NCBI GenBank assembly: GCA_002238505.1
Contig: MPMM01000009.1
Location: 62,001-126,000 of the forward strand
Length of the DNA: 64,000 nt
Source: SAR202 cluster bacterium bin22
Lineage (GTDB): Bacteria; Chloroflexota; Dehalococcoidia; Lucifugimonadales; UBA3495
Reading direction: 5' to 3'
Shown here: positions 28,816 to 62,505 of the stretch, one piece after another
Layout of the letters: each line of letters begins with the position of its first letter
Numbering within the stretch: the stretch's first letter is position 1
Made by a program: the position numbers and the translations under genes
Notes under the pieces: model-generated
Seen by the model: the letters and a program-made list of their open reading frames with translations, nothing else
Database searches by the model: none
Told to the model about the DNA's origin: nothing

Positions 28816-28867
28816 GGTTCAATTCGGTTAAGTCCTGGGTGGCATCGGGCAGAATCAGGACAGGCTT

Positions 28868-28915
28868 GTCGAACCACGAACGGACAGCCCTTCGGCAGGA
28901 TCAGGGCAAAGGGAA
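28868..28915. repeat. Degenerate REP-like element
   Basis: It contains GTCGAACCACGAACGG and CCCTTCGGCAGGATCAGGGC, matching parts of the element at 10996-11078. It lies between the peptidase and the aminotransferase. Confidence 0.55.
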
Positions 28916-29048
28916 GAGTTGGCGCCCTGCAGATAATCGTAAGACCGCGCCCGACGGTCCGAGCGGGAGTCCCGCAGCGGGCGGGTTGTGATAGACTCAA
29001 CACCTAGCGACGGCGCAAGCGCCGATCCCAATGTTGAGGAGAGCAACC

Positions 29049-42303: not shown

Positions 42304-42456
42304 AACTCCTGCCCAGCAGGTTTGTATCGGCGTCCCGACCACGACTTGTCTGCCGATTCCATACCTCTTGACTGGCTCAAGGTGACATTACTTTCCTACG
42401 CACCCCTGCGCGCCCCGTTGAACAAGTTCACAATGCATTTGCCCTGCTCCTGTCAC

Positions 42457-42530
42457 GGTCTTTCGATTGTATCGGTGCAGACTCTTCCTCCGATCGCTCT
42501 TAGCCTGTCGAGGAGCCCACCACCAACGGT
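42457..42530 (+). repeat. Degenerate copy C of the terminal-inverted-repeat element
   Basis: It starts GGTCTTTCGATTGTATC, then AGACTCTTCCTCCG, GCTCTTAGCCTGTCGAGGAG and CACCACCAACGG, each matching the intact copies at 42879 and 45721 with many changes. The right inverted end is missing. Confidence 0.65.
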
Positions 42531-42676
42531 TTCCGGCAAAGGCCATCAAGAACCGCCTGTCCCTGTGGATAACCGTCTCCGTACCCCCTTCGTGGACAAC
42601 TCCCATCCCCTTGACACCACCCCCTTCCCACCCTGGATAACCCGCCCCTACCATTAAGAGACAATACCAGGCATCC

Positions 42677-42699
42677 CCCCTCTCCCTATGGGAGAGGGG
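42677..42699. repeat. CCCCTCTCCC/GGGAGAGGGG hairpin
   Basis: A perfect 10-bp stem with a 3-base loop, followed by CAGGGGGTGAGGG. It is a common type of environmental bacterial repeat, related to those at 6146 and 60698. Confidence 0.6.
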
Positions 42700-42878
42700 C
42701 AGGGGGTGAGGGCCACCCCTTCACCCCCGCCACTTGGCAATCTGGGCAATGGCGGACCACCCTTTCATCAACCTGTCATCTGCCCCCATCCCCAGCTACA
42801 AAACAACAGGAAATGAAAGGAAATAACAGGAAAAAACAAAATTCACTCCTCGCCCTGTCGGACAAGGGCCAGGTGCAG

Positions 42879-43006
42879 GGTCTTTCGATTCTTTTGGTAG
42901 AGTCTCTTTCACCGTTCGCCCTGAGCCCGTCGAAGGGCCGCCCGGAATGGTTCTCCAAGCTCACCACTAACGGACTTGAGGAGTTGCCACCGACAATCGA
43001 AAGACC
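42879..43006 (+). mobile_element. MITE-like element, copy A
   Basis: This 128-bp element has 12-bp perfect terminal inverted repeats, GGTCTTTCGATT on the left and AATCGAAAGACC on the right. The interior contains the REP core (CGCCCTGAGCCCGTCGAAGG) and CCAAGCTCACCAC. It encodes nothing. Copy B at 45721-45850 has the same orientation and is nearly identical (about eight substitutions plus a small indel by eye). No target duplication was found by eye. Confidence 0.75.
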
Positions 43007-43154
43007 CCGCTGTTCCTGCGTCCTGAATCAACCGGTCTCCACCATCTCTGGTATCATTTGGAGTGGTGATTTGGCGTTTGGGGGCGACATCCGCAAAGTT
43101 CTCGCCTTCGTATAAGTAATTCAACCAGCCTTCGCAAACTTTTCGCAACCAAGG

Positions 43155-44666
43155 GTGTATAAATTGAACCGCTCCTTTCGCACTCGAAAACCCGGGGTAT
43201 CCTGGTTTAAGAGCAGCAGTGTGGCCGCCGCCATGCTGTCGCTCATACTGATTCTGGCCCTGGCCTGTGGCTCCAGCGCCGAACCTGAACCCGCCGCCCC
43301 GGCTGTAGAAACAGGTCCCGAGCCCACTGCCGCCAGCGTTCAGGCAGCCTCCGAAACCGGCGCGACAACCCCGGCCGACCCCCCCAGGGTTGAGACCGCC
43401 CCCACGGAATCAATGCAGGAAAGAAGCCCGGCCGAAGCCGTATCCGAGCCGTCGAAGGAAACCGAGCCCGAGGCCGAACCCACGGCCGCCGCCGAGGTGG
43501 AACCGGAGCCAGCGCCCACTCCCACCGTTTCCGTCGGTGAACTGGCCGCCCTGATTGAGGCCAATCCCGTTGCCGACGCGGTGGAACCGGAGCCTGAACC
43601 CACGGCGGAGGTCCAACGGGAGCGGGCGGAGGGGCCCCTGGCCGCCGACCCCGTGGGCATCAATGCCTGGATTAACAGCGACCCCCTGACCCTGGAACAA
43701 CTTCGGGGCAAGGTGGTCCTGGTGGACTTCTGGACCTACACCTGTGTCAATTGCATCCGCACCTTCCCCTTCCTGAAGTTGTGGCATTCCCGCTACGCCG
43801 ACGACGGGCTGGTGATTCTTGGAATCCACACTCCCGAGTTCGACTTTGAAAGGGACTACGACAACGTCGTGGAGGCTACTGAGGAGAACGGCATTGTCTG
43901 GCCCGTGGCCCAGGACAACGAGTTTGCGACCTGGCAGGCCTACGAAAACCGTTACTGGCCTGCCAAGTACCTGATCGACCAGGACGGAGTTATTCGTTAC
44001 ACCCACTTTGGCGAAGGCAAGTACGCCGAAACTGAGGAAGAAATCCGAAAACTGCTGGAGGAATCCGGCGCCGACCTTTCCGATGACGTGGGTCTGCCCG
44101 AAGACCAGGTGCTTGACCCTCTTTTCCTCCAGTCTACGTCGGCCGACGTTACTCCGGAGCTTTACGCAGGCTACCAGCGGAACGTCAACTCCATATATAG
44201 TGGCTTGCTCCCCTACGTTATTCAGTATGACTACTACGATGCTGTGGACACGGTGGGCAACCTGGTGGCTCCCCTCGACCTGGAACGCCACCACCTTTAC
44301 TTCCACGGCACGTGGCAAGTGGGGCGGGAACACGTCAAGCACGGCCGCACCACCCGGAACTACGAGGACTACATAGCCCTGGAGTATTCGGCCAGAAGCG
44401 TCAACGCGGTGCTGACATCCGACTCCGGCGAACCCTACAGCGTGCGCATTACCCTGGACGGCGAATACCTGACCGAGGACAATGCAGGAGCCGACATCCA
44501 CTTTGATGATGAGGGGCGAAGCTTTCTGATGGTGGACCAGCCCCGTCTGTACGCAATTATCGAAAGCCCCACTTACACCCAGGGGCAGATGCTGCTGATG
44601 AGTTCTAATTCAGAAAACTTTGGCCTGTTTGCCTTTACCTTCGGCATCTACACGGAGGGTCCGTGA
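43155..44666 (+). CDS. Thioredoxin-fold lipoprotein (TlpA/DipZ C-terminal-like)
   Basis: This 503-residue protein has a signal peptide with the lipobox ALAC at Cys38, then a Pro/Glu/Ala-rich linker to about residue 165. A redoxin domain follows, with VVLVDFWTYTCVNCIRTFPFL: the active site is Cys197-Val-Asn-Cys200. The C-terminal half (from about residue 330) contains YFHGTWQVGREHVKHGRTTRNYED, which resembles the carbohydrate-binding-like tail of the DipZ/thiol-disulfide family. It probably reduces or oxidises thiols outside the membrane. The GTG start at 43155 is tentative. The stop overlaps the ATG of the next gene by one base. Confidence 0.85.
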   Translation: MYKLNRSFRTRKPGVSWFKSSSVAAAMLSLILILALACGSSAEPEPAAPAVETGPEPTAASVQAASETGATTPADPPRVETAPTESMQERSPAEAVSEPSKETEPEAEPTAAAEVEPEPAPTPTVSVGELAALIEANPVADAVEPEPEPTAEVQRERAEGPLAADPVGINAWINSDPLTLEQLRGKVVLVDFWTYTCVNCIRTFPFLKLWHSRYADDGLVILGIHTPEFDFERDYDNVVEATEENGIVWPVAQDNEFATWQAYENRYWPAKYLIDQDGVIRYTHFGEGKYAETEEEIRKLLEESGADLSDDVGLPEDQVLDPLFLQSTSADVTPELYAGYQRNVNSIYSGLLPYVIQYDYYDAVDTVGNLVAPLDLERHHLYFHGTWQVGREHVKHGRTTRNYEDYIALEYSARSVNAVLTSDSGEPYSVRITLDGEYLTEDNAGADIHFDDEGRSFLMVDQPRLYAIIESPTYTQGQMLLMSSNSENFGLFAFTFGIYTEGP

Positions 44667-45685
44667 TGCGGAGCCATTCCGGCCGCATTAACGCTGGTAG
44701 CGTCCGCTGGCGGCTGGGGACAACCCTGGGCGCTGCGGCTCTGTTCCTGGTAATTGGCTGCGCCACGGCCGCACCCGAACCAACGGCAACTCCTGTGCCA
44801 GCGCCGACCGCCACCGCCATTCCTGCCGCAGAGTCCGAGCCCCAGCCTTCGAAGCCGGCGCCAGACGGCAACCCCATGGTCGGGGAAGAGGCAATCACTC
44901 CCATCCTGGCCACCACCCTGCTGAACCCGGGAGAGCAGCGGGTATCTTTCCTGCTGGCCGGCGAACGGGCCATCATCAAGGCTCCCGAAGCCGCCGTTAC
45001 CGCCACCTACGTGGGGGAAGGCGATACGGCGGAGCAGCAGGCAAATGCCACATACTACGACTGGCCCTACGGCATCCGCGGCGCCTACAGCGCCCCCATG
45101 ACCTTTGACCGACCCGGCCGCTGGCAGCTGAATGTTGCGGTGGATGACGGCGAGGTTGCGGGCGCCACGGTAATAGACCTGGAAGTTGTGGAAAACTCGC
45201 CCGTACCAGCCATCGGCGAGCGCCCTCCCCTGAGCCAGACCAAGACCCTGGACAAGGTGGATGGGGTAGAATACCTGACCACCGACTACAACGCCGACGA
45301 GGACCTGTACCGGATAACCGTGGCCGAAGCCATTGAAAGCCCCCGACCGGCGGTGGTGGTCTTCGCATCCCCTACCTTCTGCACCAGCCCCACCTGCGGG
45401 CCCCAGGTAGATACGGTCAAGGAACTGAAGGCCGCCTTCCTGGACCAGGCAGACTTTGTCCACGTCGAAATTTACGACGAACCCCAGGAAATCCAGGGCG
45501 ACCTGTCCCGGGCGACCGTGGTGGAAGCCGTGGAGGAATGGGGATTTACCGAGCTTCCCCACTGGCTGAACGAGTCCTGGGTATTTATCATGAACGATGA
45601 AGGCATTGTCGAGCAGCGGTTTGAGGGCTACGTAACGCTGACCGAACTGGAAGCATCCCTGGAGACGGTTCTGGGGAAAGGTTAG
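44666..45685 (+). CDS. Thioredoxin-like lipoprotein with CxxxxC motif
   Basis: This 339-residue protein has a signal peptide ending VIGC (Cys32), a Pro/Ala/Thr linker and a beta-rich middle domain. The C-terminal domain (about residues 215-335) reads AVVVFASPTFCTSPTCGPQVDTVKELK, thioredoxin-like but with Cys239-x4-Cys244, a spacing unlike the usual CxxC; it might bind metal or act in redox. It overlaps the previous redoxin gene by one base and likely shares its function. The closing part WVFIMNDEGIVEQRFEGYVTLTELE resembles a thioredoxin end. Substrates are unknown. Confidence 0.75.
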   Translation: MRSHSGRINAGSVRWRLGTTLGAAALFLVIGCATAAPEPTATPVPAPTATAIPAAESEPQPSKPAPDGNPMVGEEAITPILATTLLNPGEQRVSFLLAGERAIIKAPEAAVTATYVGEGDTAEQQANATYYDWPYGIRGAYSAPMTFDRPGRWQLNVAVDDGEVAGATVIDLEVVENSPVPAIGERPPLSQTKTLDKVDGVEYLTTDYNADEDLYRITVAEAIESPRPAVVVFASPTFCTSPTCGPQVDTVKELKAAFLDQADFVHVEIYDEPQEIQGDLSRATVVEAVEEWGFTELPHWLNESWVFIMNDEGIVEQRFEGYVTLTELEASLETVLGKG

Positions 45686-45720
45686 CAGCCAGGCAATCAG
45701 CCGAAGCCGCCCTCTCACAG

Positions 45721-45850
45721 GGTCTGTCGATTATATTTTGGTAGAGTCCCTTCCACCGTTCGCCCTGAGCCCGTCGAAGGGCCGCCCGGAATGGTTCTCC
45801 AAGCTCACCACGACCGGACTCGAGGCGTTGCCACCGGCAATCGAAAGACC
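45721..45850 (+). mobile_element. MITE-like element, copy B
   Basis: This 130-bp element starts GGTCTGTCGATT and ends AATCGAAAGACC, so the terminal repeats differ at one position. Its interior matches copy A (42879-43006) closely and in the same orientation. The two copies bracket the redoxin gene pair, one upstream and one downstream. Confidence 0.75.
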
Positions 45851-45932
45851 TTGGCCCTCCCACCGGCCCCTTGCCGGTAGCTGATACGGTGGGGTAGGAT
45901 AGCGCAAGACTTTTCGCCAGGAGATCCTCGCC

Positions 45933-51282: not shown

Positions 51283-51598
51283 TTCCCGTTCGCCCTGCGC
51301 TGGTCGAAGGGCCATCTTGCTCGACCCACGCCCGTTCCCGTTCGCCCTGCGCTGGTCGAAGGGCCCTTTTGCTAGACCCACGCCATGTTACCGTTCGCCC
51401 TGAGCCTGCCAAAGGGCCCCTTTGCTAGACCCGCGCCATGTTCCCGTTCGCCCTGAGCCTGTCGAAGGGCCCCCTCGCTTGACCCACGCCCGTTCCCATT
51501 CACCCTGCGCTGGTCTAAGGGCCCTCTTGCTCGACCCACGCCATGTTCCCGTTCGCCCCGAGCCTGTCGAAGGGCAGTTCCTTGCGGTTCGACAAGCC
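51283..51598. repeat. Tandem array of six REP-like units, 52/53-bp period
   Basis: Six units begin at 51283, 51335, 51388, 51441, 51493 and 51546; the last is partial. Each contains TTCCCGTTCGCCCTG, then AGCCTGTCGAAGGGC or CGCTGGTCGAAGGGC, then a CTT.GCT.GACCCACGCC tail. Units differ in a few bases. This is the same core as the dispersed REP-like elements elsewhere. Confidence 0.8.
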
Positions 51599-61770: not shown

Positions 61771-62505
61771 TCAAACTTCACGAAAAGAAAATCGGAATGA
61801 ATACGCCATGAGAGAAACATTAGGCACCGCCCTGGCGGCGGCGATTAAACGTGGTTCAAATTCGCCAGCGATCAGTATTCCCCGAACAGGGTAGTCTGGC
61901 TCCTTAGCCATACTCCCCACGTATGAAAGCAATTGTCCGATGGCGGCGAGGTTAGCTCTGCCCGCTTTTAGCTCAATTACTACCGAACGGCCTTCCGCGT
62001 CTTCAGCAGTAATGTCTATCCTCCCTGTCTCAACATTCTTCTCAGAACCGCCGTCTATAATTGTCAGGCCAGTCTCAAGCTGCTGAATATTGGATCTAAG
62101 GGCGGATTGCAAGTCCTTTTCCAGGCGAAATTGAGACTCGTCAGGGGGATACTCTGGAACAGATTCAGGGAATGGACGACGAACTTCAGGCGCGGAACCG
62201 GAAATGTAGAAGGGGTTTAGGTTGATGTTCTGCAAATTGAACACGTTGCCAGGCTTTGTAAGACTGTAAACATTTCCTGTCTTGGCTTCCGTGGAATGCG
62301 GGTTCTGAAATTCACCCTGTGATGATAGAAACCAGTCTCCTTCCGGGGCATGGATCTGCGTAACTTCATGGGTAACCATCAAGTCCAATAGTGGTCTCAG
62401 GCTTCTATTGGTGAGAAGCCGAGTCTCCCCACGGAGAATTCCCTCACTGGTCAGTTCTTCAAGGGAAAAACTGTTCAAGAACTCTTTGATATGTAGAGTG
62501 GTCAT
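61771..62505 (-). CDS. NucS/DUF91-type endonuclease-like protein
   Basis: This 244-residue protein has a C-terminal half (about residues 135-235) that matches the NucS (DUF91) nuclease fold. LEKDLQSALRSNIQQLETGL is followed by GRIDITAEDAEGRSVVIELKAGRANLAAIGQLLSYVGSMA. The metal-binding Asp and the Glu-x-Lys pair (DITAED, VIELKAG) fit a PD-(D/E)XK nuclease. NucS cuts mismatched DNA in Actinobacteria and Archaea; here the N-terminal part has no recognised domain, so the role is uncertain. The ATG at 62505 has GAGGAAAG upstream. It lies between the epimerase and rsmG on the same strand. Confidence 0.82.
   Translation of the reverse strand: MTTLHIKEFLNSFSLEELTSEGILRGETRLLTNRSLRPLLDLMVTHEVTQIHAPEGDWFLSSQGEFQNPHSTEAKTGNVYSLTKPGNVFNLQNINLNPFYISGSAPEVRRPFPESVPEYPPDESQFRLEKDLQSALRSNIQQLETGLTIIDGGSEKNVETGRIDITAEDAEGRSVVIELKAGRANLAAIGQLLSYVGSMAKEPDYPVRGILIAGEFEPRLIAAARAVPNVSLMAYSFRFSFREV

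Follow-up and report, generated by a model that had tools for sequence, protein, structure and literature searches.

Two near-identical repeats lie in the same orientation on either side of a two-gene unit in the genome of the SAR202 cluster bacterium bin22, which raises the question of whether they delimit a mobile cassette, as a preliminary description of the locus had suggested, or are separate insertions beside resident genes, and what kind of transposase moved them. The window, i.e. the whole stretch of DNA that was analyzed, comprises 64,000 nucleotides (positions 62001–126000 of contig C13) of a genome of 4.39 Mb in 58 contigs with a completeness of 97%. The repeats are present as first described, at 42879–43006 and 45721–45850, with an identity of 94% over 115 bp, and are indeed placed around two genes at 43155–44666 and 44663–45685. 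We are highly confident that the repeats are ISAs1-type MITEs, probably moved in trans, that they represent two separate insertions and that the gene pair is ancestral and not cargo.

The inverted-repeat ends, initially given as 12 bp, are real and far above chance (six matches with at most one mismatch versus 0.22 expected), but the true ends are 15 bp long. When 30 copies were aligned with their flanks, the similarity extended three bases beyond the limits first noted, at both ends, and gave the consensus 15-bp terminal inverted repeats CAGGGTCTTTCGATT / AATCGAAAGACCCTG; the corrected units are 42876–43009 (134 bp) and 45718–45853 (136 bp). A search of the whole genome, one of the checks initially proposed, showed that the unit is common, with at least 42 blastn matches at 82–100% identity from 40 of 144 candidates. 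Across the genome the elements measure 134–863 bp and encode no transposase. The ISAs1 family of insertion sequences has been described as having ends of 14–22 bp that begin with CAGGG and direct repeats of 10 bp (PMC11946415), of which ISArsp11, with CAGGG ends and a 10-bp target duplication, is an example (PMC6305408). The consensus CAGGGTCTTTCGATT falls in this length range and begins with CAGGG at both ends, although the elements, unlike ISAs1-family insertion sequences, are short and carry no transposase.

Target duplications, of which none had been seen previously, do flank many copies, with a length of 10 bp and in some cases 9 bp. Perfect 10-bp duplications are found at 12 of 60 candidate end pairs and duplications with at most two mismatches at 30 of 60, compared with about 1% of the mismatched flank pairs that served as control; for an ISAs1-type MITE a duplication of 10 bp (8–10 bp) is expected. 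They lie directly outside the 15-bp ends (for example cctactccgc, ggcggggcat and ggtggtttgc), and they were probably missed earlier because the ends had been placed three bases too far inward and the left element had been given the wrong partner end. Together, CAGGG ends and 10-bp duplications are the signature of the ISAs1 family. Tandem MITE dimers also occur, in this genome (C53:499258–499534) and in a relative (L093 in G112), in which one 9–10 bp target duplication is common to the junction and the outside, as if the second copy had entered the duplication of the first.

Within the window, the left repeat turned out to be the right end of a longer element. This long non-autonomous ISAs1-type element (42454–43009, + strand, 556 bp) has the 15-bp ends CACGGTCTTTCGATT/AATCGAAAGACCCCG, of which the left terminal inverted repeat (42454–42468, + strand) has one mismatch to CAGGGTCTTTCGATT and the right one (42995–43009, − strand, AATCGAAAGACCCCG) likewise has one mismatch. 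Its right part is the 134-bp MITE unit delimited by the 30-copy alignment (42876–43009, + strand), which contains the REP-like core CCCTGAGCCCGTCGAAGGG at 42919–42937 (+ strand). What had been listed as a third, degenerate copy at 42457–42530 is not separate and corresponds to the left end of the same element. The flanking sequences ctgctcctgt (42444–42453) and ctgttcctgc (43010–43019) form its target duplication, identical at 8 of 10 positions; for the inner left end at 42876 the corresponding comparison shows mismatches at 9 of 10 positions and hence no duplication. The right MITE (45718–45853, + strand, 136 bp) has the ends CAGGGTCTGTCGATT/AATCGAAAGACCTTG, a REP-like core at 45763–45781 (+ strand) and its own 9-bp duplication, gccctctca (45709–45717) and gccctccca (45854–45862), identical at 8 of 9 positions. 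Both duplications are imperfect and weaker than those elsewhere in the genome, a decay that is expected for old insertions. Six further long copies of 572–863 bp (one on C13, one on C39 and four on C16) are 80–84% identical to the long element in the window, with an identity of 80–89% given for the interior they have in common, and at least three long copies elsewhere are bounded at their outer ends by perfect 10-bp duplications (ccctacgtac, ggggcaagtg and ggaaaaggaa). The long element and the right MITE are two independent insertions into two targets. The window also holds a decayed copy in reverse orientation at 28816–28949, which has a REP-like core at 28888–28906 and the right end AATCGTAAGACCGCG at 28935–28949 and has lost its left end.

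The genes between the two insertions lie outside the mobile elements and are both on the + strand. The first (43155–44666) encodes a redoxin/AhpC-TSA domain protein (Pfam PF17991, PF08534 and PF00578) with a thioredoxin-like C-terminal domain, and its partner (44663–45685) has no Pfam match; the N-termini of both products look lipoprotein-like. A composite cassette that is bounded by the two elements and moves this pair as one unit is very improbable. The elements are similar in sequence, share one orientation and stand one on either side of the genes, and DNA between such ends can move, given that an interior of about 400 bp is common to seven places in the genome. However, each element has its own duplication, no single duplication encloses the pair, and the outer ends (ctgctcctgt versus gccctccca) share none, which argues for two insertions and not a cassette. 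Close neighbours are moreover common in this genome: among 46 mapped units, 11 adjacent pairs lie within 3 kb of each other against about 1.4 estimated from even scatter, so that brackets like the one in the window are to be expected. Only a single full-identity copy of the gene pair was found in the genome.

Comparison with relatives points the same way. By our own count, about 40 of the 50 genomes of the family have the two genes side by side, and a genome of the same genus (G003) has a redoxin orthologue with 92% identity in the same gene order as in the window, MoxR – redoxin – partner gene – Fer2 (2Fe-2S). In the gaps on both sides of the pair in that genome, neither the window element nor such ends were found. 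A relative that keeps both genes and their neighbours in place without the elements is the outcome named beforehand as fatal to the cassette idea; the loss of the cargo from the site that a cassette would predict for relatives is not seen in G003. The gene pair is an old, vertically inherited ancestral locus. The upstream gap in G003 (L171:2157–2355) is occupied by a different MITE, whose ends are ISAs1-like and of the CAGGGCAATCGCAT type (the left degenerate, the right ATGCGATTGCCCTG). This MITE has REP-like palindromes inside and, by eye, a 10-bp duplication without mismatch (acctaactct), so that the gap before the redoxin gene has been struck more than once. The arrangement in the window resembles the MITE-flanked blaPER-1 cassette of Acinetobacter, listed among the references of a review of prokaryotic MITEs (PMC10969869), in that two similar MITEs surround genes, but differs in having no common outer duplication and genes that are ancestral at the place. 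An integron attC array, which the 128-bp sites in direct orientation brought to mind, was ruled out by the 9–10 bp duplications and the ancestral neighbouring genes. A false lead, the redoxin cassette, is thereby removed and replaced by a well-defined ISAs1-type MITE family in uncultured Chloroflexi.

If the elements are non-autonomous, a transposase has to be supplied from elsewhere. No transposase matching the ISAs1 model was found in the genome (97% complete, 58 contigs), which bears out and extends the first impression that none is present. The model (NCBIfam NF033564) is matched in 22 of 50 family genomes, and the ISAs1 elements there end in CAGGGCAATCGCATT-like sequences and are flanked by perfect 10-bp duplications; the end pairs reported for the first-matched elements (L061–L090) lie at least six mismatches from the MITE ends. 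An exact scan for CAGGGTCTTTCGATT found it in 29 of 250 genomes of the order, with zero hits for the reversed control among the genomes listed. One of these genomes, the Chloroflexi MAG SB0662_bin_29 (G026), carries a 1,225-bp ISAs1 element on contig C226 that matches NF033564 and has exactly CAGGGTCTTTCGATT at both ends; it is of autonomous type, with a transposase that is frame-broken and split over two frames, and has no clear target duplication (mismatches at 6 of 10 positions). An intact, active partner whose ends are exactly CAGGGTCTTTCGATT was not seen, and a scan of public genome contigs with one half of the G026 transposase returned G026 as the sole match. In another genome (G211) an exact end is found shortly before the frame of a related transposase, a frame that the contig end cuts. 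The ends beside related transposases differ from CAGGGTCTTTCGATT by one change in G118, two in G002 and G003 and three in G019, and the G003 element with two changes has a perfect gctcttacac duplication. Related transposases thus have identical or nearly identical ends beside them, and the ends track the transposase subclade.

The ISAs1-type ends, the duplications and the match in G026 together identify the repeats as non-autonomous ISAs1-type MITEs, and they support the earlier suggestion that such elements may be moved in trans. As judged from the sequences, an ISAs1-family DDE transposase would act in trans on the 15-bp ends CAGGGTCTTTCGATT and make staggered cuts of 10 bp, sometimes 9 bp; in the window, two separate events took place, in which the long member (42454–43009) entered the gap that precedes the redoxin gene and the short member (45718–45853) landed downstream of the partner gene. 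Transposases of the ISAs1 class are the probable movers, and the source copy would since have been lost or be missing from the assembly. A candidate autonomous partner with identical ends is now available for the family. Inside the ends, no sequence common to the MITEs and the G026 element could be detected; with a match confined to the ends, the comparison gives no sign of descent from that element by internal deletion. All transposase genes examined from the subclade nearest to the MITE ends (L236, L237, L238, L241 and L242 in G019, G003 and G002) appear to change into the +1 frame at a conserved TTTTCCCCC, and their zero-frame stops coincide, 21 codons past the beginning of a K[E/G]NQP motif. 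The switch is a candidate programmed frameshift; some copies are near-identical, so they count as about three independent lineages.

The 134-bp units point one way within nearly every contig (9/9 on C40, 7/7 on C16 and 4/4 on C9), and on the sole mixed contig, C10, their orientation flips where the GC skew flips. Over contigs C4, C9, C10, C12, C13, C16, C19, C40, C47 and C53 (loci L179–L210), 14 of 16 contig blocks show a negative GC skew in the flanks when read along the element (p = 0.0004 by sign flipping, in a post hoc test that was prompted by the one-way orientation and uses draft contigs, local skew and not a mapped origin, and neighbours that are not independent). Such a relation suggests replication-coupled insertion. 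For IS200/IS605, Tn7 and several IS families, a link of orientation to replication through the beta clamp has been established (PMC5371812); no report of it for ISAs1 was found in the literature searched. Coupling of element insertion to replication polarity may thus apply here, with less certainty than the identity of the elements, and we tentatively propose, at somewhat less than even odds, that in these Chloroflexi ISAs1-family transposition is tied to the replication fork, so that autonomous elements and their MITEs with REP cores would both enter in a single orientation with respect to the movement of the fork. If true, the MITEs would be a genome-wide polarity marker and a natural record of replication-coupled ISAs1 insertion.

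There is a substantial chance, short of even, that the orientation bias, as distinct from the identity of the elements, instead reflects selection or a strand-biased REP core. In favour of this, REP cores are strand-skewed overall in the assembly (154 versus 66), and the skew of the flanks is more pronounced over the nearest 100 bp. Against this, the effect is still present 6–10 kb away with repeats masked (36 of 45), and on C19 a REP array points the other way from the MITEs. The same skew relation recurs in 9 of 11 full ISAs1 copies of a complete, single-contig genome (G034). Most MITEs of G210, which have other interiors, are likewise uniform in orientation with respect to skew, although the sign of the skew is not comparable with that for the MITEs of the present genome owing to the different interior.

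The interior of the elements raises a further question, namely whether a RAYT (Y1) transposase, and not a DDE transposase, has spread them as REP/BIME repeats. The REP-like core is dispersed elsewhere, as had been noted, with 13 occurrences in the window against 0.03 expected and 220 in the genome (at most two mismatches). MITEs of the same genus contain a REP-like pair, CCGTTCGCCCTGAGC...CGAACGG, which in relatives is also dispersed alone, many matches being confined to about positions 34–96, and one marginal Y1_Tnp match exists in the genome. Despite this likeness to REP/BIME systems, in which the inner palindrome would be the dispersed unit, a RAYT origin of the elements is highly unlikely: they have both 15-bp DDE-type ends of the ISAs1 kind and target duplications, no REP core lies within 1.5 kb of the single Y1_Tnp match, where a RAYT gene would be expected to have such REPs on its flanks, and MITEs with the same ends and other interiors exist. 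REPs are not known to make target duplications or to have 15-bp ISAs1-type ends. Of the two kinds of partner with matching ends that had been proposed for the search, a transposase was thus found, in the ISAs1 element of G026, but no link to a RAYT.

Short elements that carry these ends and are flanked by perfect duplications are present in several genera of the order, with interiors that differ from one another, and a second subfamily in the present genome (154–178 bp) has a wholly different interior. That a single pair of ends encloses different dispersed palindromes hints at one way in which REP-like repeats are disseminated. Like the prokaryotic MITEs Chunjie, QMITE and the Correia elements, the present ones are short, non-coding and mostly intergenic, with inverted-repeat ends, target duplications, many copies and, in all probability, movement in trans; unlike those reviewed, they have ISAs1-type ends, a REP-like palindrome inside and an orientation that follows GC skew, and ISAs1 is not mentioned in the review (PMC10969869). 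They are a new family of ISAs1-type MITEs, ordinary in kind. REP-like cores also occur apart from MITE ends in the window, in a tandem array of about six with a period of about 52 bp at 51286–51580.
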